In this document: one piece after another, positions 5,124 through 49,900 of the stretch
Position numbering within the stretch: the stretch's first letter is position 1
Layout of the letters: every line of letters starts with the position of its first letter
DNA from: Phorcus lineatus
Lineage: Eukaryota; Mollusca; Gastropoda; Trochida; Trochidae
Assembly (NCBI GenBank): GCA_921293015.1
Contig: OV121096.1
Coordinates: 12,527,000-12,590,999 of the forward strand
Length of the DNA: 64,000 bases
Reading direction: 5' to 3'
The notes under the pieces: generated by a model
What the model saw: the letters and a program-made list of their open reading frames with translations, nothing else
Databases searched by the model: none
What the model was told of the DNA's origin: nothing
Made by a program: the position numbers and the translations under genes

Positions 5124-5436
5124 TGAGTGAGTGAGTTGGGGTTTTACGCCGCTTTCCAGATTATTTCACTTGTATCGCGGCTGCTAGTATTATTGCAGGG
5201 AGAAAGCCTGCAACACCATTGTGGCTATGGATTGCGGTGAAACCTGCGAGCATCGGCTGGAACTAGCGAACCATAGGTGGTTCTGCACTGAAACTAAGTG
5301 TAGCATTGCACCCAAACCTGACTGCGTGTAGAACAGTTCTCTACTGCAGACAAAGTTGCCAAGCCCCTGGCCGGATTCGAACCACGGACCTCTTGATCCG
5401 AAGCCGAACGTGCTAACACTGCGCTATCCCGCCCCT
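5124..5436 (-). mobile_element. tRNA-derived SINE with 12-bp target-site duplication
   Basis: Read on the minus strand, the element begins near 5436 with a tRNA-like head: an A-box-like TAGCGCAGTGTTAGC, and a B box GGTTCGAATCC about 30 bases further. A body follows and a tail near GTGAGTGAGTGAG at the low-coordinate end. It is bounded by perfect 12-bp direct repeats TATTTCTTTCAG (5112-5123 and 5437-5448), a target-site duplication. SINEs of this kind are transcribed by RNA polymerase III and moved by a partner LINE. Related fragments in the window are at 7053-7190 (truncated duplicate), 16010-16160, and tail pieces at 10081 and 59725. Confidence 0.8.
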
Positions 5437-6489
5437 TATTTCTTTCAGACACATTTTTGAGTTTGTTATGAAAGGTAAATGGTTATCACTTAATCCAGTA
5501 TTTCATCTCCCTGATTTACTAACAAAAGTTTAACTCACTCCTTAAAAAGGTTGAGAAGTCTAATCATAGGGACTTGTAACAGCTACCGCTCAGTTTCAAA
5601 TGCACATCTAGACTTAATTGCAAGCAACCAGGAATCTTCCCTGCTCCTACAAGAAACAGGTCTGCATTAGGTTGTTTTCATGCTTTAAAGGTTATGAAGT
5701 AGATCTGTCTGGAAACACACGGACTGTGTTCACATCATCGAATTGAAGAAGATTGCTGATTGACCAAATATAAGAACCACCGATGTTCAAGAAATCTCAT
5801 GTACTGGTTTCTGTGGTGTAATGGTTGGTGTATAATTATTTTACAACTATACTATACTATATATATATATTTTAACTACTATACAATTCACTGCTGCAAG
5901 GCCTAAGCTAGATGTGCTTGATTTGACTTTGGCTTAAAAGTTTCTGCTCAGATGTAACAAAGAAATACTCTCAACTGCCCTGTCGCAAACAGAACAACAG
6001 GTTCAAAACAATGTTTACCTAGACTTTGTGACATCTTATACACGCTTCTTTCAAAGAACAATACCAACTCTGACAGCATTCACAAAGTTTTATTCATGAT
6101 GTAAACGTATAAAAATGTCTGTTCGGCTTCCGTGCAATGTTGAGAGCTGAAGGCGGTGGTGCAATGCCAACAGATCTCAACGGGCGTGCAATGCCGACAC
6201 AGACCAGTAAAAGTCTGTACTGTACCTCTCATACCAACCTCGCGTCCCTCAACAATTCATGCAGGGGAAACCTCCCACACTGAATGAATTTTGGTGAATG
6301 GAATTAACTCCAATGGAATGACACGTCCTATGAAGGGGATAATCCTCACTAGAATGTTCTCAGCGATGTATCTAAGGAGAGTTGATCTTCAAACCTTTGA
6401 ATTCATCAAATCCAACATGAACAGACATTTCAGAATCAGTGATGAAATATTTGCACAACTTGTGTCCGTAATTGTTTGTGAAAATGAGC

Positions 6490-6649
6490 TTATTTCTTGG
6501 CGTACGATATCTTCATAGCATTGCTGGGTGTGATCTTGAAACCTTGTAATGCCTCCTTAGCTGCACCCGCTTGAACGTCTGTTTCGAATTCTACGAAGGC
6601 AATGTCATGACGTCCTGGTACCAGCCTCACCTCCTTGAAACCTGGGAAC
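6490..6649 (-). pseudogene. SNRPA: Duplicated distal copy of the last exon of the SNF-like gene
   Basis: This is the second, downstream copy of exon 6 (the true proximal copy is 8244-8403). It encodes the same 52 C-terminal residues plus stop, with the same TTTTCAG acceptor and the same 3' UTR, including a polyadenylation hexamer at 6089-6094. A transcript using the nearer exon would normally end at 7843-7848, so this copy is probably silent or redundant. Splicing to it would still give the same protein. No degradation is visible, so 'pseudogene' only reflects likely redundancy. Confidence 0.65.
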
Positions 6650-7842
6650 CTGAAAAATATCATTGGAATTGAGTTTGGCTTGTCTGAACTAACACTGCTA
6701 CAGGATAATTTTTTTTTCTGTGTAAAGACTTCTTTGAAAACTTGTTCTGTTTCAAAGTAAACTTTTTATATTCAATTGATTTGTGAAATTTTTCATTTCA
6801 TTAGGAACTGGCATAGCGTCACAAGTATTTGATTACTCAAATTAAGAAAGATCATAGATAAATACAAGGCAGGACAATTCTAAAAGACCAGTAGATTTGT
6901 TTTGCATGCATAAGCTCAAAACTCTTCGACTTGCTTTGCATTATTTTGTATGCATCTCTTATATGCTTATTTGCATCCTATATTGCGTATATGTGTACCT
7001 AAACATCTTTGCAATTTAGCTCTGGTAACCTGGACATGTCTTTTCATAGCATTGTAGCATTGCACCCAAACCTGACTGCGTGTAGAACAGTTCTCTACTG
7101 CAGACAAAGTTGCCAAGCCCCTGGCCGGATTCGAACCACGGACCTCTTGATCCGAAGCCGAACGTGCTAACACTGCGCTATCCCGCGCCTTATTTCTTTC
7201 AGACACATTTTTGAGTTTGTTATGAAAGGTAAATGGTTATCACTTAATCCAGTATTTCATCTCCCTGATTTACTAACAAAAGTTTAACTCACTCCTTAAA
7301 AAGGTTGAGAAGTCTAATCATAGGGACTTGTAACAGCTACCGCTCAGTTTCAAATGCACATCTAGACTTAATTGCAAGCAACCAGGAATCTTCCCTGCTC
7401 CTACAAGAAACAGGTCTGCATTAGGTTGTTTTCATGCTTTAAAGGTTATGAAGTAGATCTGTCTGGAAACACACGGACTGTGTTCACATCATCGAATTGA
7501 AGAAGATTGCTGATTGACCAAATATAAGAACCACCGATGTTCAAGAAATCTCATGTACTGGTTTCTGTGGTGTAATGGTTGGTGTATAATTATTTTACAA
7601 CTATACTATACTATATATATATATTTTAACTACTATACAATTCACTGCTGCAAGGCCTAAGCTAGATGTGCTTGATTTGACTTTGGCTTAAAAGTTTCTG
7701 CTCAGATGTAACAAAGAAATACTCTCAACTGCCCTGTCGCAAACAGAACAACAGGTTCAAAACAATGTTTACCTAGACTTTGTGACATCTTATACACGCT
7801 TCTTTCAAAGAACAATACCAACTCTGACAGCATTCACAAAGT

Positions 7843-7848
7843 TTTATT
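7843..7848 (-). terminator. SNRPA: Polyadenylation signal of the SNF-like gene (proximal copy)
   Basis: AATAAA on the minus strand (TTTATT on plus), about 395 bp downstream of the stop codon at 8244-8246. The duplicate lies at 6089-6094. It is the first canonical hexamer after the stop that I noticed. Confidence 0.4.
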
Positions 7849-8243
7849 CATGATGTAAACGTATAAAAATGTCTGTTCGGCTTCCGTGCAATGTTGAGAG
7901 CTGAAGGCGGTGGTGCAATGCCAACAGATCTCAACGGGCGTGCAATGCCGACACAGACCAGTAAAAGTCTGTACTGTACCTCTCATACCAACCTCGCGTC
8001 CCTCAACAATTCATGCAGGGGAAACCTCCCACACTGAATGAATTTTGGTGAATGGAATTAACTCCAATGGAATGACACGTCCTATGAAGGGGATAATCCT
8101 CACTAGAATGTTCTCAGCGATGTATCTAAGGAGAGTTGATCTTCAAACCTTTGAATTCATCAAATCCAACATGAACAGACATTTCAGAATCAGTGATGAA
8201 ATATTTGCACAACTTGTGTCCGTAATTGTTTGTGAAAATGAGC

Positions 8244-11004
8244 TTATTTCTTGGCGTACGATATCTTCATAGCATTGCTGGGTGTGATCTTGAAACCTTG
8301 TAATGCCTCCTTAGCTGCACCCGCTTGAACGTCTGTTTCGAATTCTACGAAGGCAATGTCATGACGTCCTGGTACCAGCCTCACCTCCTTGAAACCTGGG
8401 AACCTGAAAAATATCATTGGAATTGAGTTTGGCTTGTCTGAACTAACACTGCTACAGGATAATTTTTTTTTCTGTGTAAAGACTTCTTTGAAAACTTGTT
8501 CTGTTTCAAAGTAAACTTTTTATATTCAATTGATTTGTGAAATTTTTCATTTCATTAGGAACTGGCATAGCGTCACAAGTATTTGATTACTCAAATTAAG
8601 AAAGATCATAGATAAATACAAGGCAGGACAATTCTAAAAGACCAGTAGATTTGTTTTGCATGCATAAGCTCAAAACTCTTCGACTTGCTTTGCATTATTT
8701 TGTATGCATCTCTTATATGCTTATTTGCATCCTATATTGCGTATATGTGTACCTAAACATCTTTGCAATTTAGCTCTGGTAACCTGGACATGTCTTTTCA
8801 TAGCTGTCTTAGCACTTAAATGGTTATAAGATAGTTGTGTTTGGTATGGTATTCCTCATATTACAATTCCAACAGACAACATAACCATGAACGCGGGAAT
8901 AAAGTGTACTTACTGGTTGAAGAGCATAGACAACATCATCTCGTTTGTTTCCTCGGGCAGGTTTGTGATGAACAGAATCTGGTTGGGAGGCTGTTCTGGG
9001 ATGGCTGTGGATGCCGCTACAGGGGCTGCTGCAGCAGGTGTCACTACAAGAGGGATTGACAAACCAGTAACAAACAAGGGATTTCAGTTGTCAGTGAACA
9101 AGAGTAATTCAACAAGAACAGTATTGAACATCTGAATTTAGCGAATAACTAAATGATAATAAATTTGGGTTCCCATTACAGAAAAGTAAAATGAGGTTTG
9201 AATAACTTATCAGTTCTACAACAGTGAAAGAATATCAGTGGCCATCACTTTTGGTATAAGACTAAATGTCTTGCAGGAATACAAATTATTGGCTAGTATT
9301 GATTCATTCGCGTAGGATTCTTCAACTAGGACACAAGTTAATTACACTGGCACAGTTTGTTAGGTAAAGGTATGAAAGTACCTGCTACTTGTGGGACTGG
9401 CATCTGGCTGACTGGAGGGGTGACAGCAACAGCAGCAGGAGGGGCCGCCGGGGCTCTACAAATAATATTTATAGTTATACTTTGTCTTATCTGTTAATTG
9501 TTTTACATAAAATGGGAGCCAAAACAAAGCGCTACAAATACATGAAGGAATGACCAAGCACGGAAATGAAAATATTATGACAACTTTCTCTTTGAAGTAA
9601 AGTTTCATTTCAATTTGATTTTTCTTGATTTTATATTACCCTTTTCTTTATACAGTATCTGTAGTTGGTTCTTGCTAGTCTCTCATTACTAGATGATTTC
9701 CCATTCACTACATACTTTGCTTGTTGACCTTTCTTCTTTTTGCGGGGTGCCTCATCTTCATCCCGCTTCCTGCGTGGCTCCTCTACATATGTGCCCTTCA
9801 TCTTTGCAATTACATGAGAGTCCCGCTTGGAGAACTGAATTCTCTACAACATAAAAAGATTGGTTAAGTAGGTGAAACTTTATAAACATTTTTGTAAATC
9901 ATAAATCATCCAGGCTGCTGCTATAGATCTTGATAGTCCAATGAGATATCATATGAGAATTAAAACTTTTCGCCAAAGAGAGTACTTCAGTCAAAACACA
10001 CATTACGACGTGTTAGCAGTAGGTTTTTGATTAGTTAGTGGTAGAAACTGGTGTAACTTGAAGCCATGCAGGGGAAGACTAGTGAGTGAGTTATTGTTTA
10101 ACGCCGCGGGGGCAATATTTCAGCCATTAGCGGCATATGTTGGAAAAGTACCACACACTGATATTGATTGTTTTCTTATAGCTTGCACTATAGGCAGTGA
10201 ATGACATTTAGGTCAAGACATTGGTCAAAATTTAAGAATTTATCAACAAAACATTTGTACTCGTCTTTAAACAGATTCCCTATCCAATGAAAAAAAAAGG
10301 TTCCACTGTCTTACCATTGGTTTATCATAAAAAGGAAATCCCTGCATAGAACGCAATGCATTTGCTGCACTGTTTATATCCTTGAATATGACAAAAGCCT
10401 GGCCCCTCATTTTCAGTGTCTTCAGTGCAACTATATCCAAGATTTGTCCAAACTGAGAAAATATAGCATATAGCGATTTCTTCAATTCTGTAAAAAAAAG
10501 AGAAAGGAATAAATAATAGATATTACTTACAGAAATAGTCTTTGGCCAACTTAAAAAACCTATGTTCAAGCAGCTTTACAAATTGCTTTTAATATAACAT
10601 CACTTGTAATCACTGTTATATTTGAGACAAAACTATCATCATAAGTAGAACTTTTCTCAAGACAGGTTCCTTCAAGACTGAACCCACACCAGAGTCACGT
10701 TCAGATCACCTTGAGATCTCATTTGATAAATGGATCACCTGACGAGTCGGTGCTGGCAAATAGTGATCGAGTGAGGGTCCATAAAGCACTCAAGAAATAG
10801 TGATTCAAATAGTGACATCTCCCAAAAATAGATGATGTTATATTGGTCCTTGGTTCTAAGAACCTTGTGAAATACTGGCATTTGCTAGTGAATTTGGGGC
10901 GTTTCCCCTTCACTATCATAATAGAATGCATTTATTTTACCATCCTTCTTGATCTTCTCATTCAAGTTGTTGATGTAAACAGTGTGGTTTGGCTGGACTG
11001 ACAT
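8244..11004 (-). CDS. SNRPA: U1A/U2B''/SNF-family snRNP protein with two RRMs
   Basis: Six coding exons (11004-10941, 10487-10315, 9843-9716, 9455-9382, 9043-8914, 8403-8244) sum to 729 nt, 242 residues, with every intron GT-AG and every phase closing. RRM1 (about 7-90) has RNP2-like VYINNL (9-14) and RNP1 RGQAFVIF (49-56) plus [11 protein letters not shown]2 (about 169-242) contains [15 protein letters not shown] and [11 protein letters not shown]. The linker is basic (RKKK) then rich in Ala/Pro/Val. Vertebrates have separate U1A and U2B'' proteins; insects have one SNF protein binding U1 and U2 snRNA loops. This sequence is closest in my reading to Drosophila SNF ([20 protein letters not shown]), so it probably serves both snRNPs in the nucleus. 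The length fits (human U1A 282, U2B'' 225, SNF 216). The last exon is duplicated downstream. Confidence 0.92.
10081..10140. mobile_element. SINE tail fragment in intron 2 of the SNF-like gene
   Basis: AGTGAGTGAGTTATTGTTTA, then ACGCCGC and CAATATTTCAGCCATTAG. A close relative is at 59725-59785. This GTGAGTGAGTT...ACGCCGC module is also the tail of the full SINE at 5124-5436. No target duplication was found. Confidence 0.5.
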
Positions 11005-12400
11005 TGTGGCTCTGCTTCTGGAATAAAAAAGGAACATTGATTAATGTGCATATTTTGTGTTAACTTTAAAAATGAAATTTTTCACACTTCAGTTCTTACA
11101 ATTCACATTGTTAGGACACAATATCCTGTTTTTTAACACCAAAAAAGGGTAGCACAAGTATATTCTATCTATAAATATTTATAATTTTCTTGTACCCTTG
11201 AAATCAACATTCATTACCCTAAAAACATGATTTAAAAAAATCTATGGGTGCCAAAATACCCCTGGCTGAGGAAAGGAAAGTACTTTTATTCCATCAACAC
11301 TTGTGTACACAAACACGTGGTAGAGACTTTCAATTCATTGTGCACAAACTTTATATTAGCAGTACGGTTTTCTGTCACTCAATTTTGGGTTTTTGTTGCT
11401 TCCTTTAAACTGGGCTACATGCTCTGCTGCCAGAATGTGTGAAGAGGGAAACGATAGACAGAACGATTTCGAATCTAGATAGTCAATATTCTGAAACTTA
11501 TTCCTTGGAACAAGGTCCATTTTAATCAGACTGCGACTATTCTACAACTTTTTTTTATATCACATGATTACTTTTATAAAAACATATAAAAATAATTGGA
11601 TTAAAAAATATGCGATTAGATACAATGCAATTAATTCATTATTCCAATTTAAATGTTATTTAGAATTTATTTAAAAAACACTGAGGTATGCTGACTGCTT
11701 GTGCATACATTGATACACTTGATTCAACTTGAGCCTGTTGTAGGCAAATGGTCCTGAGCATTGTTCATTTGACCACTATCAGTAAGGTTCAGCAATATCA
11801 GCCATAGCTCCCTAGACGGATAGGTTTAGCACTTCAAAGCTAGATTAGCCGAGAGTTTGAAGAGTAATTCCCTGCCCCACACTGCGACAGAAGTTAAAGA
11901 GACTTGTGCTTTGTGGTGTCAAATTGGGCAAGAGACTTTATTCAAAATGTATCTCGCTCCCCGTTTCCCACCTAAACCTTAAAATTACCCATACCCATTT
12001 AAATATTAAGATGTTATGAAGAAAATATCGGCATAAAAGTTACAGTCAAACTATCATTTACAAAAATGGTTGGTGAAACAATTCTTTAGTCATACCGTTT
12101 CCCTGATACACAATGTAACCGAGTTATCAATGATAAGACACTGAAATATCTCGATGCAGTATTTGTAAACCGGTGTCTGATGACACCGGCTTCTGAACTA
12201 GACTTCATCAGACAAATACACCACTGTCATAAAAAATGTTATTTCCTTGAAATAAATAATAGGTGTCAATATGATTTTACTTACTTTTTAAACAACTTAA
12301 TCGTTTGATAAATGCGATTCCTTTCGATTCTTCCAAACAATAACGTCTAACTCACGTTATCCACAATGGCAACTTCCGCCAAAACCGTAAACTTCCGGTT
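11005..12400 (-). other. SNRPA: 5' UTR exon and first intron of the SNF-like gene (inferred)
   Basis: A consensus acceptor (TTTTATTCCAG on minus) lies 13 bases upstream of the ATG, so the 5' UTR is spliced (piece 11005-11017). A matching donor GTGAGT is read on minus at 12355-12350, giving a non-coding first exon from about 12400 to 12356. The intron between them (11018-12355) shows no gene. This is an inference from splice consensus only. Confidence 0.5.
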
Positions 12401-12598
12401 CATTAAAATTAATCTTCATGAATTTAATATGATACGATAAAATACTTCTGAACCTATTGAATGATTTTGAATTGATAAAAATAAACAAACATATATGTTT
12501 CAATGGAATATAAAATTCATCTATCAAAGTCGCGGATAGACGTGACTTCGTCCGCCATATTATTTTGATAGGAGGACGGGGGAGGCTCGATTAGCAAA
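12356..12598. promoter_or_regulatory. Divergent promoter region between the SNF-like gene and VPS26
   Basis: The inferred first exon of the SNF-like gene (minus) and the start codon of VPS26 (plus) are about 240 bp apart, back to back. ETS-type sites CTTCCG (12373-12378) and ACTTCCGG (12391-12398) lie near the minus-strand start. A YY1-like CCGCCATATT (12552-12561) lies 38 bp before the VPS26 ATG. ETS and YY1 motifs are typical of TATA-less housekeeping promoters. No TATA box is seen. Confidence 0.5.
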
Positions 12599-15500
12599 AT
12601 GGTGTGTATCAATCGCTGATAAACATATTTATTATCTTTGCAATGACAATTTTCTCTTGCAAATTTTCTTTAATTGTGTATATTCCAAACAGGTGAAAAA
12701 TTACATGATAGATAAATGAAATACTGCGTTGGTTTTAGATGAAGGAAGGAGGTGGTATTTGTCATGTGATCAAGTGATTTTCGTCTACATTTTTGAGGAC
12801 GTTTTTGAAATGTCATAGTTTGAACTAACACAAAATGCATCCGTTATGACAAACCGACAGAATTAATCTTGATATGAACCGTAATGATATAAAAGGAAAT
12901 CTGTAGAAGCATAGGTCAGTTGCATTATGCATTCAGTGCCAAGTCCTTTTCAACACTTCCTTGTAATTTGCAACGAGCACCTGCCGATATGTTATAAGTT
13001 TGTAGGCGTTGTTTGGCAGAATTGCTGATTTCTTAAGATTAAAGCTAAATCAAAGGAGTGCTGAATTTAACAATTGTCAATTGTTGTAAGCCGTGAAAAA
13101 CCAGTCCTGACTATGTTGACTGTAAACAAGCTAAGGATCATAGGATAAGAACCCTTAGATTCATTTCCCAGGGAATTATGTTCATTTGTACTATTTTTTA
13201 GCCCTTTGATTCTCATATGACTGTCATCTGACAAATCATAAACAGTTGACACCTCTTACTAAACCCATTAGATTCTGTAATGTAGTCAACATATATCTTA
13301 GCTGACTCATAGATTACAAATTCTACAAGGGCCTGACAGATCAGTAGACCCTTTAAACACTGTGTAACTTGAAATACATACAATTGTTTATAAAAGCCTT
13401 TTGACAATGCTTTCATCTTTGTATCAGTCCCAGTGATTAGGACTTAGATAGGTTAATTATGAACCTTTTTATGTTTTCCTTTCACAGAGTTTCTTCGGTT
13501 TCGGCCAGAGCGCCGAAGTGGACATTGTTCTTGAAAATCAGGATTCACGAAAAACTGCAGAAATAAAGACAGAGGATGGCAAGAAAGAATGGTATTATCT
13601 GTACTTTGATGGAGAAACAGTTGCAGGAAAGGTAAAGATGCAAATTATTATTCAAATTGTTGCAGAATATGTATCATGCCTATTACATTATAATGAGAAA
13701 AAAAGAAAGTTGCTTCAAATGTTCATGTTTAATGTTTAGGTCAACGTGACTTTGAAGAAGTCTGGAAGTAAACTAGAGCACCAGGGAATCAAAATAGAGT
13801 TTATTGGACAAATAGGTAAGTTCTTTTTTCTTTTGATTAAGTGTTCTATGAGTTTTATTTCTAAGACTACTATCAATTATAAGAGCATACCTTTTTCACC
13901 TGAGGCCTTTTTTTTTTTATAAATTGGTTTACGGATCCGCCGACCGTAAAAAGCTGAGATACTGAAAATAAATAAAATTCCCATAAGAGCATTTTTTTAT
14001 TACCGTCGAGTGAAAACAGAAGAAATGTCAATAAAATAATAATCAGTGAAATAGATATGCTTCCCAAATGTCTTGCCTGTGAACCAACGGAGCCCGTTCT
14101 AAAAATAAACCACATCGACAATGCTCCACAGCAGTGCGTGACCTGTTTAAGACAATAACGGCTTCGCTGTAAGGAGCTGCCTTTGCTTAATACTCGACAG
14201 CAGTGTGTGGCATTTATCTCAATGTTTATAATACCGCAGAATCCACTGTAAGGAGCTATGCGATCTACTTCCGGTTTTCAAACATGTGTTCGCCGGCTGG
14301 CGAAAGTTTTTCTTACTTCCAAGTAACATTAAAACCTCCTGGAACAATAAGCTTTCTAAAAGCAAAACATAGTCAGTCGATTGGGGATGCTCTCCTGTGT
14401 CCCATATGTGTTATAATGCATGAAATGACACCATACAGTTTTATTTTATTTTTTTTATGCCTACCGACTGATTTATTCAGTAGAAGAAAAAAATAATTTC
14501 AAAAGCCAATTATATTTATTTTTATTTTTCGACCACCGACTTGAAGTTTTAAGGGAAAAAATCCGTAAACCAACTAATAAAAAATAAAAGGCCTGATATG
14601 CCCTGAGTAAATGATGATTATCAGGAGCTAAAAGCCATCTTCAGGTTTCTATATTTTGCACTTTTTGTCTTACCAAGAACTCCCCTGACCGTCGTGATCC
14701 TACTTATTTGCAGAATTGTACTATGACCGAGGAAATCATCATGAATTCACATCTCTTGTCAAAGAACTGGCTCGGCCTGGCGAGCTTACCCACAACGCCA
14801 GCTATAATTTTGAATTTCAGCAAGTTGAGAAGCCATATGAATCCTACACAGGGGCTAATGTTAGACTACGGTAAATCTAGTTGAAATGATTTTTTTTCTT
14901 GAGTCAAACCACATTCTTATTACTAATTCTAATCCATTTGAATCGCATTGAAATATAAAGAAAACAATCTGCTTCCCCTTTGGTGGCACCTGTCAGTGAC
15001 ACAATTTTTTTATATCACAGGCGAGGTAATTTCAAAATTGTGTGTTGAAACAAACATTGCTTACATTTGGGGAAATATGAAAAAAACTAGTGTTTCACCA
15101 TATGGGTAATAAAATGTGTTTTTTCTTAAATTTGATATCTTTTATGGAATGAATACAAATTGGAAGTTAAACCACCTATACATCCATTAAATTAAACTCT
15201 TTATATGTATTTTAGATATTTCCTGCGGGTGACGATCGTGAAGCGGTTGACGGACGTGGTAAAGGAGCAGGATATTGTTGTGCATACACTCTCCCAGTAC
15301 CCTGACATGAACAACAGTATCAAGATGGAAGTTGGTATAGAGGACTGTCTGCATATAGAGTTTGAATACAACAAGTCAAAGTAGGCACCAAGTTTTTCTT
15401 AACCGACTCTTGATTCACTGATGCTTATGGGCGTATTGACTTTTAATATGGATAGATAACTAGTGATATACTTACTTATCAATCTTTCGTACAGGTAGAT

Positions 15501-18500
15501 TAGTTATTCATTTACATACAAAGTTTTAAAGTAACTACTAAGTTGATACAGATTTGAATACATGTAAGATAGTAAGGGAAATGATTCTTTCCATCATCTT
15601 TACAATTATTGATTGAATCAAGTCACAGAATTTGAATAAAAGTCTACGAAGTGATTATGGATTAAGCCTCCATGACTTCAATATTAGCATTAGGTGACGT
15701 CAGTCTTGGGCTCATCCCTGATAGGCAGATCAATGATTCTCACAAAGTTTGAGTCGAGAATAGCAGCATTTGAGTCCAATCGGTAACATACTCGAAACAT
15801 GTGCTTTCATAATTATTTTAAAGTGTTGGTTTGCTTTTCATCCATTTGCATAATGCCGAATATGTTAAATATTTCTTTTCTTTATTGATTAGCTGTAAAT
15901 AAATTCATCATCTTTTATGATTTGATATGAGAATGTCTCAAACCATCTCTGCAATTTTTCATACATAGTTATATTGGCTTCTTGAGTTAGATATGGGTAA
16001 CATCCCTCACAAATGCAGTACCACCCATGGTTTGCATGTTCCAGCCGCTGCTCGCAGGTTTCACTGCAATGCATAGCCTCAATGGTGTTGCAGGCTTTCT
16101 CACTACAATAACACTAGCGTTCATGATATAAGTGAAAAGCTCTCGAAAGCGGGGTTAAGCCCCAGGTCACCTCACCTCCCTCAAAAGTTCTGTTTCTCTA
16201 ACGACTCATGTGGGCGCTTTTAACAAATGGATAACATTCCTTGACGTAGCACTACATTTTCCATGGAGGAAGCAGTGTTTCAGATTGTTTACAGTCAGAG
16301 TGAGACAAATGTCTCATGAAGCCAAAAAATGATGAGACACTTTCAAAAACAATGAGTCAAGCATTAAAACAAACAAAAAAGTCAAATATTTTGTTCTGAT
16401 GTTTGTGACATAAACGTTTCCATTTCCCTAATCCCATTATTAAAGCCGGTCATATAAAGATATTATATATTGAAAATAACATGTGGGAACCATGCAGCAG
16501 GTGTCTAAAATTTAATTTTAATTCAGTCACTCAAATCATTCTGATTCATTAATGTTCTTAACAGTTTTTAACTAAATGCTTAACATTTCAATGTATGATA
16601 AGCAAGTTTCACTAGTCATTCATTCAGTTAATCACTACTGGGTGTTTAGAATTTTATTATAACAGCAAAGCAGACGATGTACAGATCTATTTATAGACGT
16701 GTAACCGTGCCATGGTAAAATACTGAAAATATATTACATTGAGTAAACTAAAAGCACTCAAGTTCTTTTAAACATGATTAAGTAGAATTATGATGCATAT
16801 TAACTACTTGACACACACCACAAGCTCCAAACACTGTGGGCTTGATTATATATCATGCTCAGTCGATGCATGGAGCTTTGTAACCGGAAATTGAAGTTAT
16901 TGGAGGGAGGGTATAGTAACAGCATGTAAACAATATGGGGACTTGCGATTTCCCGAGAGTTTATTATTGTATCCTCTATAAAGATGAGTTGACAGCTTTT
17001 TCAAAATTTAATTGTTCAATTAAACAATTACACTCGACAGTTAGGCGCATAAGGCTGAAAACCCATGCGACATTTTTTAGAAATCATGCGAGAATGTCGC
17101 GGTCGCGCCGTAAATCTGAAACACTGAGGAAGCCAAACTGATTTTATTATAAGGGAATAAAACCTAAGCAATGAGGTTTCTCATGAGGCTACTGTTCTAA
17201 ATAGTTGCCTGCTCATCAGCTTATGGCTGGTCAATTTCAGATTTGATGAGTTGCAAAAGAGACAATCGAACGTGTCTGGCTTGTCTAGCCTAGTTTATGA
17301 TATACGAAGCTTCAACTCCAATTTTGCCATCGTAAACCAAATAGTATTTGTGTGCTGCAATGACAATGATAAACAGGCCTTTTTACATACACTGTTCATA
17401 ATGCATTTGTACCTTAGCAGTCTTATTTCCAAATCTAATATGTTTTTGGAAATTACAAATTGTTGATAGTTATGCTTTGTGAAATTAACAAAATGTTTGA
17501 TTCTTTTAATGCCTCCTGTGAAGATACCACCTGAAAGATGTAATCGTTGGCAAAATATACTTCCTCCTTGTCAGAATCAAAATTAGATACATGGAGTTAG
17601 CAATAGTGCGTCGAGAATCCACGGGGGCAGGTAGGGTCATGTGAGCTTGTGTCAACCATTCAGATGTTAGATGTGCTTTCGTCATTGTAGGATCAGTAAA
17701 GTCGGCATGTGGTCATTTCCATTTCAGCAACATTGTCATCCAGTTTTGTTGTATTTTACCTCATCATTTACAAATATGTTAAACATTTTTTCTTGTGAAA
17801 TCTGTACATACTTGAAATTTTAGTTCACTAGACCTGAAAGGCACGGTTGCAAATGGGGGTTAGAAATTGTAGATATACCCGTGCTTGAATCTTTGCGGTG
17901 ATTACCGATAACCAATCCCTCACACAAGGATTACACTGCTGCACAGTGCATTGTTGTAAAAATTCTGAAGTTAAAAAAGACTAAATAAGAATACATTGTT
18001 CTCAGATAGATTTCACAAGAAAAAGTTTGAAGAAGTTTTATTTGTTTTCCTGGTTTTGCATGTTTGTGTCTCTGTTGTGCTGTGACCCTGTGCTTCTCTC
18101 CACAGGTATCATTTAAAAGATGTGATTGTGGGAAAAATTTACTTCCTACTTGTCCGGATAAAGATCCGCCACATGGAGATTCAGATAATTAAACGAGAAA
18201 CAACGGGCACAGGTACACTACTTTCTTACTGTAAGGTATTTTGTTTGAAATTAACACATTAGCTTTTGAATAAATGTTCTCCTCAAATCATTAAGAATGG
18301 GCTATTTTCAGGAAATGAATTTTCTGGTATTGGCTGCCTGATAAAGATAGACTTAGTTGAATTATTTTAGAAGCAAAAGGTCCTGTTTTTTGGTACTAAT
18401 TATTCCATTATTGGTTATGCTAGGTTATTTCACCTCAACAAAACTTTTAAACCATCCCCTCCACTTTCATTGAATCCATGAACATTCTTATTATGTTTCA

Positions 18501-20469
18501 AAAGTGCTTTTTCAATATGAATACTAACACAATAGAATATTGATACTTCGGCTAGTATCTATTGTCTCAGGTTATTTTGACCTTTAGCCTGTGGATTGGG
18601 AAATAATTCAGGACATTTGTCAGACAGTCTAAAACATACAAGTGAAAGGTTGAGATTTGACTCCCACACATCAATCACCTGATATAGCCTTCAACTGATT
18701 AGTGTAAGTTTTGATGATAGTTGTCATCTAGTCTTATATAGTACACCTAAATACTATTGTAAAGGAAATAAGACTTTGGAGATAAATGAGAAAAATGCCG
18801 ATCCCAAAGTTTTGTTGACTTCCGGAATTCTAAAGACAGTCGTTAGTTTATTCTTGTACTGATTAGTTAAAGCGTTGATGATACTTCTCATCTAGACAAA
18901 TATATATTATATCTATATACTTTTTTCAAGGATTGAGAAAGGGTAGAGAAATTAGAAAATGGTAACCCTAATGTTATGTTTACCTGAGGAAAACCAGGGG
19001 GCCGTTGCACAAAACAACTTAACACTAAGGTTAACCTTAATGCCATCATTTAACATTGCACTAAGGCTACCTTAGTGACTTAAGGTCACCTTAGTGTTTT
19101 GTGCAACGGGACCCTGAGGGCAGTAGTTAGAGATTTGTGTTGTTTTGTCAAATGCATGCTCAGCGTGAGCTTTTGTCCTGTTGACATATTCATCAGATAT
19201 GAAAGTAGGACGATGTTCATTTTAACTTGTTTGGTAAATGTTGAACTGATGTTAACGCCTATCCTAACAGACAATGTCATGATGAATTTATGATTGAAAT
19301 GTGACCCTATGTTTGTGATCCCATTATTGTTTTTAAGTTTGCTCTTGTGACATTTTACTTGCTTTCCTCCAACATAAGATTGTTTTTTCTATAGCTTTGT
19401 TTCTCTTTAAAGTTTTCCTATACCTCTCAATTAAAGATCTCCAAATTTAACAACAATTTGTAAATTTGTTTAAATATATATCAAAGCTATTGAAGATAAG
19501 TTATATTGAATGAAATAAACATATTTTGCATCTCAGAATGAAAAGTACAATTTTGAAATGTAGATGGAAACTTATACACTATCTCATTGCAGGGCCAAAT
19601 ACATTTAATGAAAATGAGACAATAGCAAAATATGAAATCATGGATGGAGCACCAGTAAGGGGTAAGATTGACTTTCCTACTCTCTTGAGCTGTTGACTTC
19701 AACACGCTATGTACTCTCTTAAACATATGAAACATGGAATCGAGGAATTATCGGTGGTTGCATCTAAACTAGCCCATATCAATGATAAAAGTTATCATCT
19801 TATTTTATGTTTGTTACATATGAAAATACATTTGATGTACAAACATGTTTGGCAATGATTGTAGGTGAGTCTATACCAATCCGATTGTTCCTGAGTGGAT
19901 ACGAGTTGACGCCCACAATGCGGGACATTAACAAGAAGTTCTCGGTGCGCTACTACCTGAATCTTGTGCTTGTGGACGAGGAGGAGAGGCGGTACTTCAA
20001 ACAGCAGGTAAGTTGACTTGACCCATTAGTTGACACTAGATGTCATACTGATCGTGGCCAGAGATCTTGAGTGTTAGGGAATAAAAGCAAGTAATTAGCA
20101 GGTCTACATGAAAAGGTAGTGAGGAGGGACATAAAAAAGGACATTTGTGAAAAACAGAAAAATCATCATGGCATAATTCACAGTGTTATTAAGCATTGGT
20201 ATCTCATCTGTCCCTGCATTTCCCTTAAGGGAGACCCCATTAGCGTTTCATCACCATTACCTTGATGTGTGCTGGTGTTGTAGGAGATCACAATATTCCG
20301 GCGGGCTGACAAGGTGAAGAGAAGTTACCAGTCCTCCATGCACCACCACCAGCCCAACCTGAACCGAGACCGGCGCCAGGTGAAGCCCGCCCAGCAGGAG
20401 AACAACGCCGCTGAGAAGGAGGACGAGGGAGCAGAAGAGGAGGAGGAGGAAGAGGAGGAGTCATCATAA
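12599..20469 (+). CDS. VPS26: Vacuolar protein sorting-associated protein 26, retromer subunit
   Basis: Nine coding exons (12599-12601, 13488-13631, 13740-13815, 14714-14870, 15216-15380, 18106-18212, 19593-19661, 19865-20007, 20284-20469) sum to 1050 nt and give 349 residues; human VPS26A has 327 and VPS26B 336. Exon 1 codes only for the initiator Met. VPS26 is the arrestin-fold subunit of the retromer (with VPS35 and VPS29) on endosomes, which returns cargo to the Golgi or plasma membrane. Recognisable blocks: LEHQGI.IEFIGQIEL, LVKELARPGELT, VEKPYESYTGANVRLRYFL, NNSIKMEVGIEDCLHIEFEY, YEIMDGAP (about 231-238; the equivalent human Ile-Met pair contacts VPS35) and TPTMRDINKKFSVRYYLNLV. The C-terminus is a Glu-rich acidic tail of about 20 residues. 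Exon 6 has an alternative copy at 17524-17630. Confidence 0.96.
13904..14593. mobile_element. PIF/Harbinger-like non-autonomous element in VPS26 intron 3
   Basis: A 690-bp element with terminal inverted repeats of about 33 bp: both ends, read inward, start GGCC, then a T-rich run, then TTGGTTTACGGAT. It is flanked by the trinucleotide TGA on both sides (13901-13903 and 14594-14596), fitting the 3-bp target duplication of PIF/Harbinger transposons. No transposase frame is present. Inside, a segment with CAGCAGTG.GTG and CTGTAAGGAGCT occurs twice (about 14121-14180 and 14198-14259). The superfamily is inferred from duplication size and terminal GGCC. Confidence 0.65.
16010..16160 (+). mobile_element. 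SINE body fragment in VPS26 intron 5
   Basis: Read on the minus strand, this segment matches the plus-strand body of the 5124-5436 SINE: GAAAGCCTGCAACACCATTG, then GTGAAACCTGCGAGCA and CGGCTGGAAC, then a GGTGGT.CTGCA block. Relative to that element it is inverted. The tRNA-like head is not recognisable, so it is an old truncated copy. A 61-codon open frame across it is accidental. Confidence 0.55.
17524..17630 (+). CDS. VPS26: Alternative exon 6a of VPS26, probably mutually exclusive with exon 6
   Basis: A second exon-6-like segment lies 475 bp upstream of the annotated exon 6 (18106-18212). It has the same length (107 nt), the same phase at both ends, an AG before it (GTGAAG|A) and a GT donor after it (GCAG|GTAGGG). 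It encodes 35 residues starting YHLKDVIVGKIYF, with no stop. Residues 183-203 are identical in the two versions although 14 of those 21 codons differ synonymously. Residues 204-217 differ at seven mostly conservative positions (H204Y, I207L, Q208A, I210V, K211R, T214S, T217A). Including both exons would shift the frame (214 nt), so only one can be used. The acceptor of 6a is weaker than CTCTCCACAG of exon 6, suggesting regulated inclusion. Expression is not proven. Confidence 0.8.
18995..19116. mobile_element. Short palindromic MITE in VPS26 intron 6
   Basis: A 122-bp element whose ends are inverted copies: the left reads CAGGGGGCCGTTGCACAA and the right, on minus, CAGGGTCCCGTTGCACAA. Inside are several inverted copies of ACTAAGGT.ACCTTA, so most of it can fold. 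No clear target duplication could be fixed. It has no coding capacity. Confidence 0.6.
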
Positions 20470-43900: not shown

Positions 43901-46900
43901 AGTCAGTCTTTGGCTATGACAACTGTGAGCGTGTCAGCATGGCAGGCAATGGTTGCTCCAGGCTATCAAACCTGAAACCTAAGAGAGCTGCAGGGTGTGG
44001 ATGGAGTGGTCGAGGAGCAAGAGTCATCTTCATTGGATCATTTAAGCTTTGTTAAGTTTTGTTAAGTTTAACAACTTGTACATTGTAAAGGGTCCATATA
44101 AAAAGAAGTTACAGAACTGGCGAAATTACAAGTTACTCATCCTGTTGCATTACCTCATAAGATGAATTAAAGTTAGCAAGTATTCTATCTATTATGTAAC
44201 TACATGTGTGTGTTACATACTTCAATTGACCTCTTTCAACTTTGTATTTGTGTCCCCATTTTGCTGACTGTAGAACCAGTAAAGCTTTCATAGAGGAGAG
44301 AAAAAACCACGGATCGTGACTCATGATATACACAACTTGACAATAGGTAAACAGTCACAAAAGAAATCTTGTTGAGTTATATCGTCTCAAAGCCCGTTCT
44401 TTGCTCTTGTGCTTTCAGATTATCTAGAGCGTGCAAAACCTGACACCTTTTCATTTGTCCTCTGTAAGCAGAAATTACTCTATGCAATGCTACTCAAATA
44501 AATAAGAACCATCTGATGTGTCCTTAAGGAAGTATTGTCAAATTTTTAAACTTTTAATTTGTAATATTTATTTTTTGGAGAACTGTTACTAATGTACAAA
44601 GAATGTTGCCATTATGATTAAATAGAATGGGCCTTGACTGGACTTTTTTACAAATTAAAAAGAAAGGTGAAGGGATAAATCATGATATTTGAAGAATCTC
44701 TACAACGACACAGCAGTAAGCACATGAAGAAGAATAAAGCAGGATATGTCTCTATTTCATGGAAAAAGCTTGCTTCACTGCACACTACATACACCACATG
44801 AAATCTATACAAAACACAACACACTGTCTGTATCCTATCCAGTCTAGTTATCGTAAGTAATGCTATTGTAAAATTTCTCCCAAGTTTCTAATGCTAATGC
44901 TTCTAATTCTGCTTGTCACATCCTGGTTAACTGTCTAGAATTTCTTCCCTCAACCATCCCTTAGGAATGAATTATCCACTTCCTGAAAGCTAGTTGACTA
45001 AAAGTTTGGTGGCGATATTCCTGAAGACAATTTGATGTTAACCCTTAAGATGCGGGTCCCGGGCCTGTCCGGGTTGAAATTTGCTTTGACCGCATGTCCT
45101 CTGGGCGAGATGCGACATCGAAACTCTATTTTTCTCACGCTAGCTCATTAACGCCGAGGTGCACAGCAGCGAAGGACGGGCAATTGTTGCACGGCAGTAG
45201 TGTCAGTTTAACGCTAGTACTTTCCGTCCGTGTGTCGCTAAGCTACCGAATTTTGTTTCGTTGGTGTTCTAAATAATGCGCGTACATGTTCCGAAAATTA
45301 TGCAACCATTGATAACGTTTATCGTACCGATAATAAGCTTTAAAATCACTCAATTTTCCCCCACTCCCCGCCGTACGTGCTAATAGCCTGTGGGCACTTT
45401 CTACCCTCTCGCACGAGCTTACCGACCCGCGCATGCTATCGTTTACTGAGACGCGTGCATTTTGACCCTATGCACGCCTTCCTATCGCACGCCCTATGTT
45501 CTGAACCCTTGGGCAGATTTCAATATAGGTGGGATCATTTGAAAGAGAAAAAAAATCTCTTTAATTCGATGTAAAAAACATATGTGCGCCTTTTGAAATA
45601 AAGATACCGCATGTGCCGCAAAAAAGGTGATTTTTATATATTTTTAGTTTTACACTGTTTTGTCACACCAATTTTCTCATGATGTGCTCTACATATTTTG
45701 ACATTTTTTATATCACAAGATAGAGAAAAAGATTGTCTTTAATCCCATGTAAAATGTGTACATGCGCAACAATTCATAAAGATACAGCAAGCGCCGCACA
45801 AAAAGGTAATTTTGCCGACTTTCTTATCATGTGATCTGAAGCGCGATTTTCATGTGCCTTTCTTTCACAATGAATTTCTTTTACACCGTGAAAAAGATTT
45901 TGTTGAATTTTACATCACTATAAAGACAAATGAATTGGCTTTAATTCCCTATATCAATTATTATGCGCGCAAATAAATAAAGACTCAACAAGTGCCGTAA
46001 AAAGAACAACTTTCGCACTTCGCAATTCCGTTAGTGACGGAAATAGGGAAACTTTGGCACTTCATATCCCCGTGTACAAATGACACATTTCAAAACCATT
46101 TATATCATTATCAAGAGGAATAAATTGTCTACAAAGTGATATATAAAATGTACATGTACAAACGAGACAAAATATGTCGGGGATCTTTCGCCGGGCACCG
46201 CCATCAGGTCATAAGAAAATGTGTCCAACGAAAATGTTCGTGTTCGAGAAAAAAAATTTCAGCGGACTTTCGTCGGGCACCGCCAGCAGGTATGTGTTTT
46301 TCTCTGCCAAATTTGTGTTGGTCGAGGAAACTCATTTTTGAAAAAAAAGTTTGGTAGCATTCCAATGTATTAAATAGTTTGCTATATATGTCGGGATGGC
46401 ATGAGTTCCTTCGAGTGAAATAAAGACAAGGGGCCGGGTGCTCGTTGACTACGGCCGTCCCGACAGATAGGCCCGTGGAACCTATCATTCTCGGAAGAGA
46501 AGTCAAGAGTTGAAAAACTTTTGTAATCCACAACTGACAATCAGAACTTTCCTGACGTAGAAGGCAGTTGTTCGCGACTCGCCGGCTCGTTGCATAGGAG
46601 TCAGAAGGCGGCATCAGGGTTGATAATGTTGATACAACGTCGGCGGCCGTCGGTGCCATCGGCACCTTCGGCGGGATTGTGAATTTTTGTTTCAAACACT
46701 TACAAAATGTGGCAATTGAACGTCCATGAAGCTCACATTGAATTTCTCTGTACAACAGGTCATGTGTTGATGTTATTATATCTTGCGTGTGCCTAAATTA
46801 TTTTCAATCATTTACAGATTGATGTGAAAGATGCCTAAGGCCAGGAGGCCGCGAACCAGGAGTTGGGAAGGTCCGTCAACGTCTAGCGACGACGACTTCA

Positions 46901-49900
46901 TCAACGAGGTCCATGCCGATGAAGCTTCTGATATGGAATCAACTGATGAGAGTGATAGTGATAGTGACAGTGACAGTGATGGTGAAAGTGACATTGATAG
47001 TGATGTAGAAATAAGAAACATTGCAAGACACATATTAGCAGCTACGGGTGAAACTGCTACGACTGGTACTTCCACAGAAGAAGAGTTCAGTGGCTTTGAT
47101 GAGCAATATAATGAAATGGACACACATTTTGATGACCGTGACAACTTTATGGAACGCTGGACAGAGGGTCCGAGGCCACGTGGACGTGTTGATCTCCAAT
47201 TTACTGGCAACACGGGATTAGGACGCTTCATAGAATTGCCTGATAACCCGCAACCTGTAGACTATTTCGGGTTGTTTTTTCATGAAGATGATTATGGATC
47301 AATGGCAGCAGAAACCAACAGATACTTCCACCAACAGGTTGACGATACGGTTCTAAAGCCCTGTTCAAGGTTGAGGCAATGGTATGATACGAATGCTGAA
47401 GAAATGAAAGTATTCGTAGCAATGACTATAGCAATGTCTTTGGTTGTACAGAGAAACTTTTCTGAGTATTGGTCATCGAGTGATGTGACGTCGACGCCTT
47501 TCTTTGCCAAATGTATGCCTCGTGATAGGTTCTGGTTATTACTAACGTACCTACATTTGAATGATAATAACCAAATGCCGGGACGAAACACACCCCAGTT
47601 TTCACCAATCAATAAACTTGGCTATTTGTACAAGCGCATCGTGCATCGTTTTTCCAGAATTTACAAGCCGCATCAAACTATTTGTGTTGACGAAGGGTTG
47701 GTGCCTTGGAAAGGCCATCTGAGTTTCAAAGTATACAATCCCGACAAGCCGAAGAAGTATGGGATAAAGGCCTACATGCTGTGTGACTCAACCAATGGTT
47801 ATGTTTGCAAGTTTGAACTCTACACTGGAAAAACAAATGAATCTGTTTCTGTCGGTGGGAAAACGTATGATCTCGTCATGGACTTGGTGAAGGATTATGC
47901 TGGGAAAGGATATCATGTGTTCATGGACAATTTCTATTCCTCTGTGGCATTGTATATAAACTTGTGGGAAATGGGAACTGGTGCAACTGGGACGTTGAGA
48001 GGCAATCGCAAAGGCATTCCTGAAAAGCTAAAGAAGGCACAGAAAAAACAGAAGAAAGGGGATATGATGATCTATCACAATCAAGACCTACTCGTTGTGA
48101 GGTATGAGGACAGGAAGTCAGTGCTGCTCATGTCAACCGTAGAAGACACTGAAATTGTAGAGACAGGGAAGAAGAACCGAGTGACTGGGGAAGCAAATAC
48201 GAGACCAAGTATTGTGCACGAGTACAACAAATATATGGGAGGTGTGGATCGGGCCGACCAGATGCTGTCGTACACCCCGTTCAAAATGAAAACTCTTAAA
48301 TGGTGGAAGCGAGTGTGGTTTCATGTGTTAAACGTTGCCATGTTGAACTCTTACATTCTCTATAAAGAATTCTCAAAAGACAAAACCTTGAAAACAAGCC
48401 GTCAATTCAGAAAAGATATAGTGCAGCATATGATCACCTTCGCAGACACGGAAAAAGTACCTTCCCTGCGTAGACGTCCTCGTGGCAGGCCAAGCACAAG
48501 CGACGAAAGTGTGTTACGTCTTCATGGTCGACACTTTCCATCAAAGATTCAGCCTGTTGGAAAGAAGAAGAGGCTTTCCCGTATGTGTGTTGTTTGCTCC
48601 AAAGCGAAAAGAGAACTCTTTCGAAGGGCAGTGGAAGAAAGCAATGAGCCAGTTCGAAAGAAGAAAAGGGTAGGCAAAGAATCTTCTTACGAATGTAGCG
48701 AGTGTAATGTGGCTCTATGTGCAGCACCATGTTTCAGAATTTATCACACGTCACAAGATTGCACTAAAGCTTATATCAGTTTGATGTCAGAGAAGGAAAA
48801 TGAGGGGGATACTCAAGAAGATTGAAGAAAGAAGAAAGAAGCAGAAGTGTGGATGAGCGTTACTCTCCTTATAAAGTTTATTCTTCACATCAATAAGGTG
48901 AATGAGTAATATAAAATACTGATTGTCAATAAAATAATCTTTTTTTTAAGTCGTAAAAGAGACAGAGAAAGTCAATGTGAGCTGTCACTGGACGTTCGAT
49001 ACGAGCCGCATCACGAATCTACCCCGATCTTTCGCAATTTGTATTCTTAGAATCGGGTGGCGAAACTTCATACTTTTTACATCATCGTAAAGGGAAAAGA
49101 ACTGGCTTTGATTCATTTTGAAATGTGTATGTGCGCAACACATAATAAAGAAGCGGCAAATAATGCGAAAAATGTCGCAATTATCAATTTTTTTTCCCAA
49201 ATGTCTGAGGGTACCCCTCTTTAACGGTTCATATCTCCCGAACTATTTGGCACTTTTTAATTTTTTTTCCACCTTTCTCACGCGGAAAGAATGATCTTTA
49301 ATTCCGTGTATAATATGCATGTGCGCAATTAATAAAAATGGTGTGGCGAGTGCAGCGACAAATGTCGCAAATAAAACGATTGTCAAAATCTATTTTCAAG
49401 TAGTTGAGGGTGTCGCTCTTTAGCGGTTCATATCTCCCGAACTATTTTATACTTTTTTATATTTTTTTCACCTATTTCAAGGGAATAGAATTGTCTTTAA
49501 TTCCATGTATAATATGCATATGCGCAGTCCATAATAACGATGCGGTCAATGATGCGACTGGTGTCGCAAATAGAACGCTTATCAAAATTTGTTTTCAAGT
49601 AGTTGAGGGTATCACTCTTTCGTTTTTCATATCTTTTGAACCAGTTGGCACCTTTTCATTATTTTTTCACAGTCGTAAGGACGAAAGATTTATCTTTATT
49701 TCCATGTATAATTTGTACATGCGCAGCAAGAAATAAGGATGCGGCGTGCGTATAGAATGATTGATTTTATTATCTCGGAATGTTCGCCCGCGTGTGACTG
49801 CACGCGCCGAGAGGATCGGTACAGCAGGAAGCAACGCTGTTGCTTAGAACACTGGCACTCGCATGCTGGTGCCTCGGGGGTGCCCCGGGGGTATAACGGT

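Follow-up and report, generated by a model that had tools for sequence, protein, structure and literature searches.

The question raised by this locus is whether a single VPS26 gene can provide two forms of the protein by choosing between two versions of one internal exon, and what such a choice would mean for the retromer. The window, the whole stretch of 64,000 nucleotides of DNA that was analysed, contains a complete VPS26 gene on the + strand (12,599-20,469), which in the gene model comprises nine coding exons, the sixth of them present twice. Its copies, here termed 6a and 6b, are very probably the old products of a tandem duplication, both of which have been kept as mutually exclusively spliced coding exons.

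The VPS26 gene and its genomic setting

The gene is made up of the following exons:

12599..12601, + strand: VPS26 exon 1, of which the coding part is the ATG only (gene model)
13488..13631, + strand: VPS26 exon 2 (gene model, genome search)
13740..13815, + strand: VPS26 exon 3 (gene model)
14714..14870, + strand: VPS26 exon 4 (gene model, genome search)
15216..15380, + strand: VPS26 exon 5, ending after two bases of codon 182 (gene model, genome search)
17524..17630, + strand: alternative exon 6a, the derived copy, from the split codon 182 through codon 217, ...RYMELAIVRRESTGA (strong donor CAG/GTAGGG, modest acceptor)
18106..18212, + strand: alternative exon 6b, the conserved copy, ...RHMEIQIIKRETTGT (the gene's strongest acceptor and weakest donor)
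19593..19661, + strand: VPS26 exon 7 (gene model, genome search)
19865..20007, + strand: VPS26 exon 8 (gene model, genome search)
20284..20469, + strand: VPS26 exon 9 with the stop (gene model)

All intron borders in the gene model are GT-AG and an uninterrupted VPS26 of 349 residues is obtained with either copy of exon 6, each of which matches VPS26, in agreement with the proposal of an earlier note on this DNA that the gene has two alternative coding exons. Both isoforms contain a full-length Vps26 domain (Pfam scores of 462.7 bits for the 6a isoform and 464.2 bits for the 6b isoform) and are closest to VPS26A/B, not to VPS26C. Among solved chains, the 6a isoform scores best against VPS26B (527 bits), followed by VPS26A (502) and VPS26C (37). 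The VPS26A and VPS26B chains matched are presumably mammalian or from another vertebrate.

A search of the whole genome (957,807,699 bases in 74 contigs) for the Vps26 family gave seven matches. Since six of these lie in the VPS26 gene itself and the seventh is a VPS26C exon, of which two pieces, when joined, reach 131 bits against the VPS26C chain, the genome apparently holds one retromer VPS26 gene plus VPS26C. All four matches to the C-terminal part containing 6a, used as a query against the genome, likewise fall in the VPS26 gene. A second retromer VPS26 gene was not found in the whole-genome family search, which divergent copies could escape. The earlier note had contrasted this locus with the vertebrates at the level of the gene, and the contrast holds: one retromer VPS26 gene is found here, and in chordates a duplication of VPS26A gave rise to VPS26B (PMC12260524). 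Scans of viral and prokaryotic contig collections with the VPS26 protein found no relative, which says little given the nature of those collections.

Several features of the surroundings may be recorded in their own right. The VPS26C exon (positions 1459-1906 of its locus, L006) is accompanied, ~0.2 kb downstream, by a second, partial copy whose Vps26 score is 14 bits, compared to 43 for the complete exon, and which is apparently a local duplication. In the window, VPS26 stands head to head with a minus-strand gene (about 10970-12600, by eye), with which it may have a common promoter region; the upstream exons of this neighbour encode an RRM (RRM_1) and look, by eye, SNRPA/U2B''-like. The 3' part of the same gene is present as a 1,752-bp tandem copy of 99.9% identity (5299-7050 and 7053-8804), which is either a very recent duplication or an assembly artefact. 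Further downstream, an open transposase frame of 665 aa with a DDE_Tnp_1_7 domain (46828-48825), piggyBac-like by eye, marks an element that has possibly been active recently. Elsewhere in the genome, the haemocyanin beta-sandwich family gives 16 matches, in two groups of eight on one contig. Two groups of eight such domains are a molluscan, gastropod-like arrangement, in keeping with the mollusc assumed in the earlier note.

Divergence of the two exon 6 copies and selection on them

The earlier note had described two copies of 107 nt with equal phase and AG/GT flanks, and these coordinates and lengths hold. Both exons begin with the third base of codon 182, and 74 of their 107 bases are identical; the 33 differences fall 10, 2 and 21 times on codon positions 1, 2 and 3. 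A recount likewise reproduced the reported distribution of changes along the protein: residues 183-203 are identical (21/21) while 14 of their 21 codons differ silently, and seven of the 14 residues at 204-217 differ (Y/H204, L/I207, A/Q208, V/I210, R/K211, S/T214 and A/T217, 6a/6b), so that 28 of 35 residues are identical over the whole exon. With tblastn, each isoform protein finds its own exon with E-values of 6.6e-17 (6a) and 2.1e-17 (6b). 6a and 6b are thus neighbouring internal exons of similar length, homologous and phase-matched, each with its own acceptor and donor, as expected of tandem-duplicated exons. Furthermore, the frame break that had been claimed for the use of both exons does occur, the third full 6b codon then being read as a stop, and the use of neither also breaks the frame: in both cases stops follow soon after, so that joint inclusion or skipping is incompatible with a full protein, as in mutually exclusive exons.

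Next to the two exons no match between the adjoining introns was found, as expected of an old duplication. An assembly or haplotype artefact, for which the near-identical 1.75-kb tandem copy elsewhere in the window might be quoted, can practically be discounted, as the two exons show 33 mismatches over 107 bases, have no intron match beside them and are each found once in the genome.

Silent sites between the two copies are saturated, with an NG86 silent difference of 0.85 over the 35 codons and, in residues 183-203, seven of 21 codons the same compared to 7.9 expected by chance at saturation. Due to this saturation the estimates of the codon model lie at the boundary and its comparisons alone are meaningful: an omega near 0 beats an omega of 1 (2dlnL 52.2), and a model in which 6a has been neutral since the duplication, with 6b constrained, lies 18.8 lnL below the free model. 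The absence of any residue change over the ~48.7 nonsynonymous sites of residues 183-203 bounds a recent neutral phase to ~0.06 substitutions per site (95%). In simulations of neutral copies, at most seven residue changes without a stop were retained by none of 50,000 copies with 33 changes and by 393 of 50,000 with 17 changes, and by 22,882 and 38,005 of 50,000 with 10 and 7 changes, respectively; because the latter often pass, the simulation count alone is compatible with a short neutral phase. On these comparisons, neutral drift of 6a since the duplication is rejected and any neutral phase would have been short. The claim that both copies have long been under purifying selection on the protein is thereby borne out: judging from their codons, both are under protein-level selection, which is weaker in the last 14 codons.

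All seven changes lie within the last 14 of the 35 residues (P 0.0005), where omega taken alone is ~0.6, and they are conservative, with a BLOSUM62 sum of 9 that is reached by 1.3-1.7% of random sets. When the changes are polarised by VPS26B, six fall on 6a and none on 6b; polarised by VPS26A, four fall on 6a and one on 6b. This one-sidedness makes 6b the conservative and 6a the derived copy, whether by tuning or by relaxed constraint, and the omega of the last 14 codons and the faster change of 6a fit relaxed constraint as well as tuning. In the last block (17588-17630 / 18170-18212), five of the six unchanged residues, methionine omitted, have identical codons in the two copies, compared to 2.3 expected (P 0.03); this excess may reflect a shared splicing enhancer or another constraint at the RNA level, or chance.

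The stop that joint inclusion of 6a and 6b meets at the third full 6b codon could also make 6a a regulatory poison exon, included with 6b so that the transcript decays and the level of VPS26 is lowered. Such a role is very improbable: it does not need conservation of amino acids, yet 6a keeps 28 of 35 residues with silent sites randomised in the first 21 codons, a pattern that implies translation of 5-6a-7 transcripts.

Splice signals and the intron between the copies

Scored against a generic matrix, the splice signals of the two exons appear complementary: 6a has a strong donor and a modest acceptor, and 6b combines the best acceptor in the gene with the poorest donor. The 6a donor scores 10.05 bits, which is reached by 0.3% of 385 decoys, and the 6a acceptor scores 4.41, above the acceptors of exons 8 and 9 and equalled or exceeded by 8.6% of 362 decoy AGs. 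The 6b acceptor (13.42) is reached by none of the 362 decoys, and the 6b donor (4.49) is the weakest of the nine in the gene, with 6% of 385 decoy GTs as good. Exon 5, for comparison, has an acceptor that is reached by 8.3% and a donor that is reached by 5.2% of decoys, similar to the 6a acceptor and the 6b donor.

The modest acceptor, the omega of ~0.6 in the last 14 codons and the six-to-nil placement on 6a of the changes polarised by VPS26B would all suit a 6a that worked for long as an alternative exon and has lately gone out of use, so that decay is beginning. However, 6a shows no stop, frameshift or loss of a splice site and not one change in residues 183-203, its seven changes are conservative and lie in a block where VPS26A and VPS26B also differ, and its donor is matched by few decoys, which leaves recent decay improbable compared to continued use of both exons.

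Exclusion by steric hindrance is ruled out, the 6a-6b intron being too long at 475 nt. This intron contains an inverted repeat that is a candidate splicing-control stem, with the following arms:

17779..17803, + strand: left arm, whose 17-nt perfect core occupies 17787-17803
18008..18030, + strand: right arm, with the perfect core at 18008-18024 and 75 nt between its end and exon 6b

The perfect core of 17 nt compares with at most 11 nt in 60 shuffles; with a 2-nt bulge allowed, the stem grows to 23 pairs (-23.9 kcal/mol). A 271-nt stretch with the repeat, chosen post hoc, folds better than its shuffles (z -2.39; 4/200 as good), but the intron as a whole is no more stable than its shuffles (z -0.13; 42/100 as good). 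Among the eight introns scanned (the long 5-6a intron omitted), two others also exceed their shuffles, of which ten were made for each: intron 3, with 13 nt, and the 6b-7 intron, with 15 nt; the latter repeat belongs to a genome-wide repeat element. The best candidates for docking/selector pairing were equalled in 13 and 3 of the 29 shuffles, respectively, so that none stands clearly above shuffles. The 271-base stretch itself is found once in the genome. An origin of the 6a-6b inverted repeat from a repeat element is unsupported because this stretch is single-copy and the control element of the 6b-7 intron is present in many copies, although the copy-number search passes over very common words, and a single old copy of an element is still conceivable.

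The element in the 6b-7 intron is a foldback element (18990-19120) with many genomic copies of up to 99% identity (62 rows from the 40 scored of 2282 candidates). In intron 3, inverted-repeat ends (13924-13936 / 14561-14573; 34 nt at 91%, with a 13-nt perfect core) bound a stretch of ~0.7 kb that looks like a transposable-element insertion.

The inverted repeat between 6a and 6b is thus an unproven candidate control element. In view of the results from shuffles, folding and docking, the frame-shift with nonsense-mediated decay (NMD) is ranked as the main enforcer of exclusive use and the stem as an unproven helper. Frame-shift and NMD are a common basis of exclusivity in mutually exclusive exons (PMC5740500).

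The mechanism that we propose would have begun long ago with a tandem duplication of exon 6 in what is apparently the sole retromer VPS26 gene. Exon definition would pick one copy: by default 6b, on account of its strong acceptor, and preferentially 6a whenever some factor strengthens the weak 6a acceptor or holds 6b back. NMD would remove transcripts that carry both copies or neither, as in U2AF1, and the 23-pair inverted repeat may help the choice.

Place in the protein, precedents and meaning

In a hand alignment to arrestin, the end of exon 6 appears to lead into a C-loop-like hairpin, and the strand after this hairpin contains a motif that we take to be VPS35-binding. Because of this proximity, the variable residues would more likely affect contact with the membrane, cargo or VPS35 than dimerisation. 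By sequence, on which alone the mapping to solved structures rests, residues 182-217 correspond to residues 184-219 of the 327-residue VPS26A chain (4p2a). Nothing was found in the open-licence literature on the VPS26 loop 15 residues, L197S/R199E or I235/M236, and the available portions of PMC9636581, PMC5409824, PMC11580166 and PMC2515105 contain nothing on exon 6.

Since the two proteins would be identical apart from one short segment in the C-terminal arrestin-like lobe, the switch would fine-tune contact with the membrane, cargo or VPS35 rather than create a new function, a step towards which we lean slightly. The alternative, which coincides with the preferred reading in all but this step, is that both exons are used and the proteins are equivalent, the pair being kept by redundancy or by differing responses to splicing factors with the retromer unchanged. 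The seven changes are indeed conservative and lower the Pfam score by 1.5 bits, but the long retention of both copies and the faster, conservative change of 6a are more easily explained by some difference; equivalence is the less likely reading but a serious rival.

VPS26A and VPS26B likewise are two retromer VPS26 forms, and in the exon 6 segment both pairs differ only in the last part. Unlike 6a and 6b, they are separate genes with further differences in other parts, mostly at the C-terminus (PMC12260524). VPS26A and VPS26B differ at four of the seven sites that changed between 6a and 6b, an overlap with P = 0.015 when the whole exon is considered. For the variable block 203-218 taken by itself the value is P = 0.33, so that the overlap reflects which sites vary, and a specific site parallel with the vertebrate pair was dropped.

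The closest precedent is U2AF1, whose exons Ab and 3 are also adjacent homologous internal exons with seven amino-acid variants and unequal splice signals, and in which including or excluding both exons leads to stop codons, NMD of such transcripts having been shown (PMC5224494). Its authors tentatively tie inverted repeats to the exon choice (PMC5224494). In contrast to VPS26, where the pair is known from sequence alone, U2AF1 is another gene with another fold, from vertebrates, and its switch was demonstrated by transcripts and minigenes (PMC5224494). Similar length, the same frame, conservative changes and retained key residues are shared with mutually exclusive exons in general (PMC9741552, PMC5740500), but the sets described there are human-centred and ion channels are the enriched class named; 'VPS' does not occur in the main text of PMC9741552, nor 'VPS26' in that of PMC5740500. 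Another retromer subunit is also diversified by alternative splicing, in the VPS29A/B/C isoforms, but these are N-terminal extensions and not a swap of homologous exons (PMC12260524). The inverted repeat in the intron of the cluster recalls the docking/selector choice of the Dscam type (PMC6071210), from which VPS26 differs in having no competing selectors clearly above shuffles. Among the titles and beginnings of abstracts listed from the open-licence literature on VPS26 or retromer splicing and on mutually exclusive exons of molluscs, no such exons in VPS26 are reported. As far as this search extends, mutually exclusive tandem exons are known as a kind and VPS26 is new as a gene that carries them.

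In its fullest form the proposal is tentative and rather less likely than not: in a mollusc lineage, an old exon switch, chosen by tissue and partly controlled by the stem, would yield two retromers as an exon-level counterpart of VPS26A/VPS26B. The retromer is a core recycling coat and is strongly conserved. Should both exons be used, one VPS26 gene would provide two coats distinguished by a single defined segment. Such a pair would be a natural swap experiment, pointing to a surface of VPS26 worth tuning, and would parallel independently the A/B split of vertebrates.
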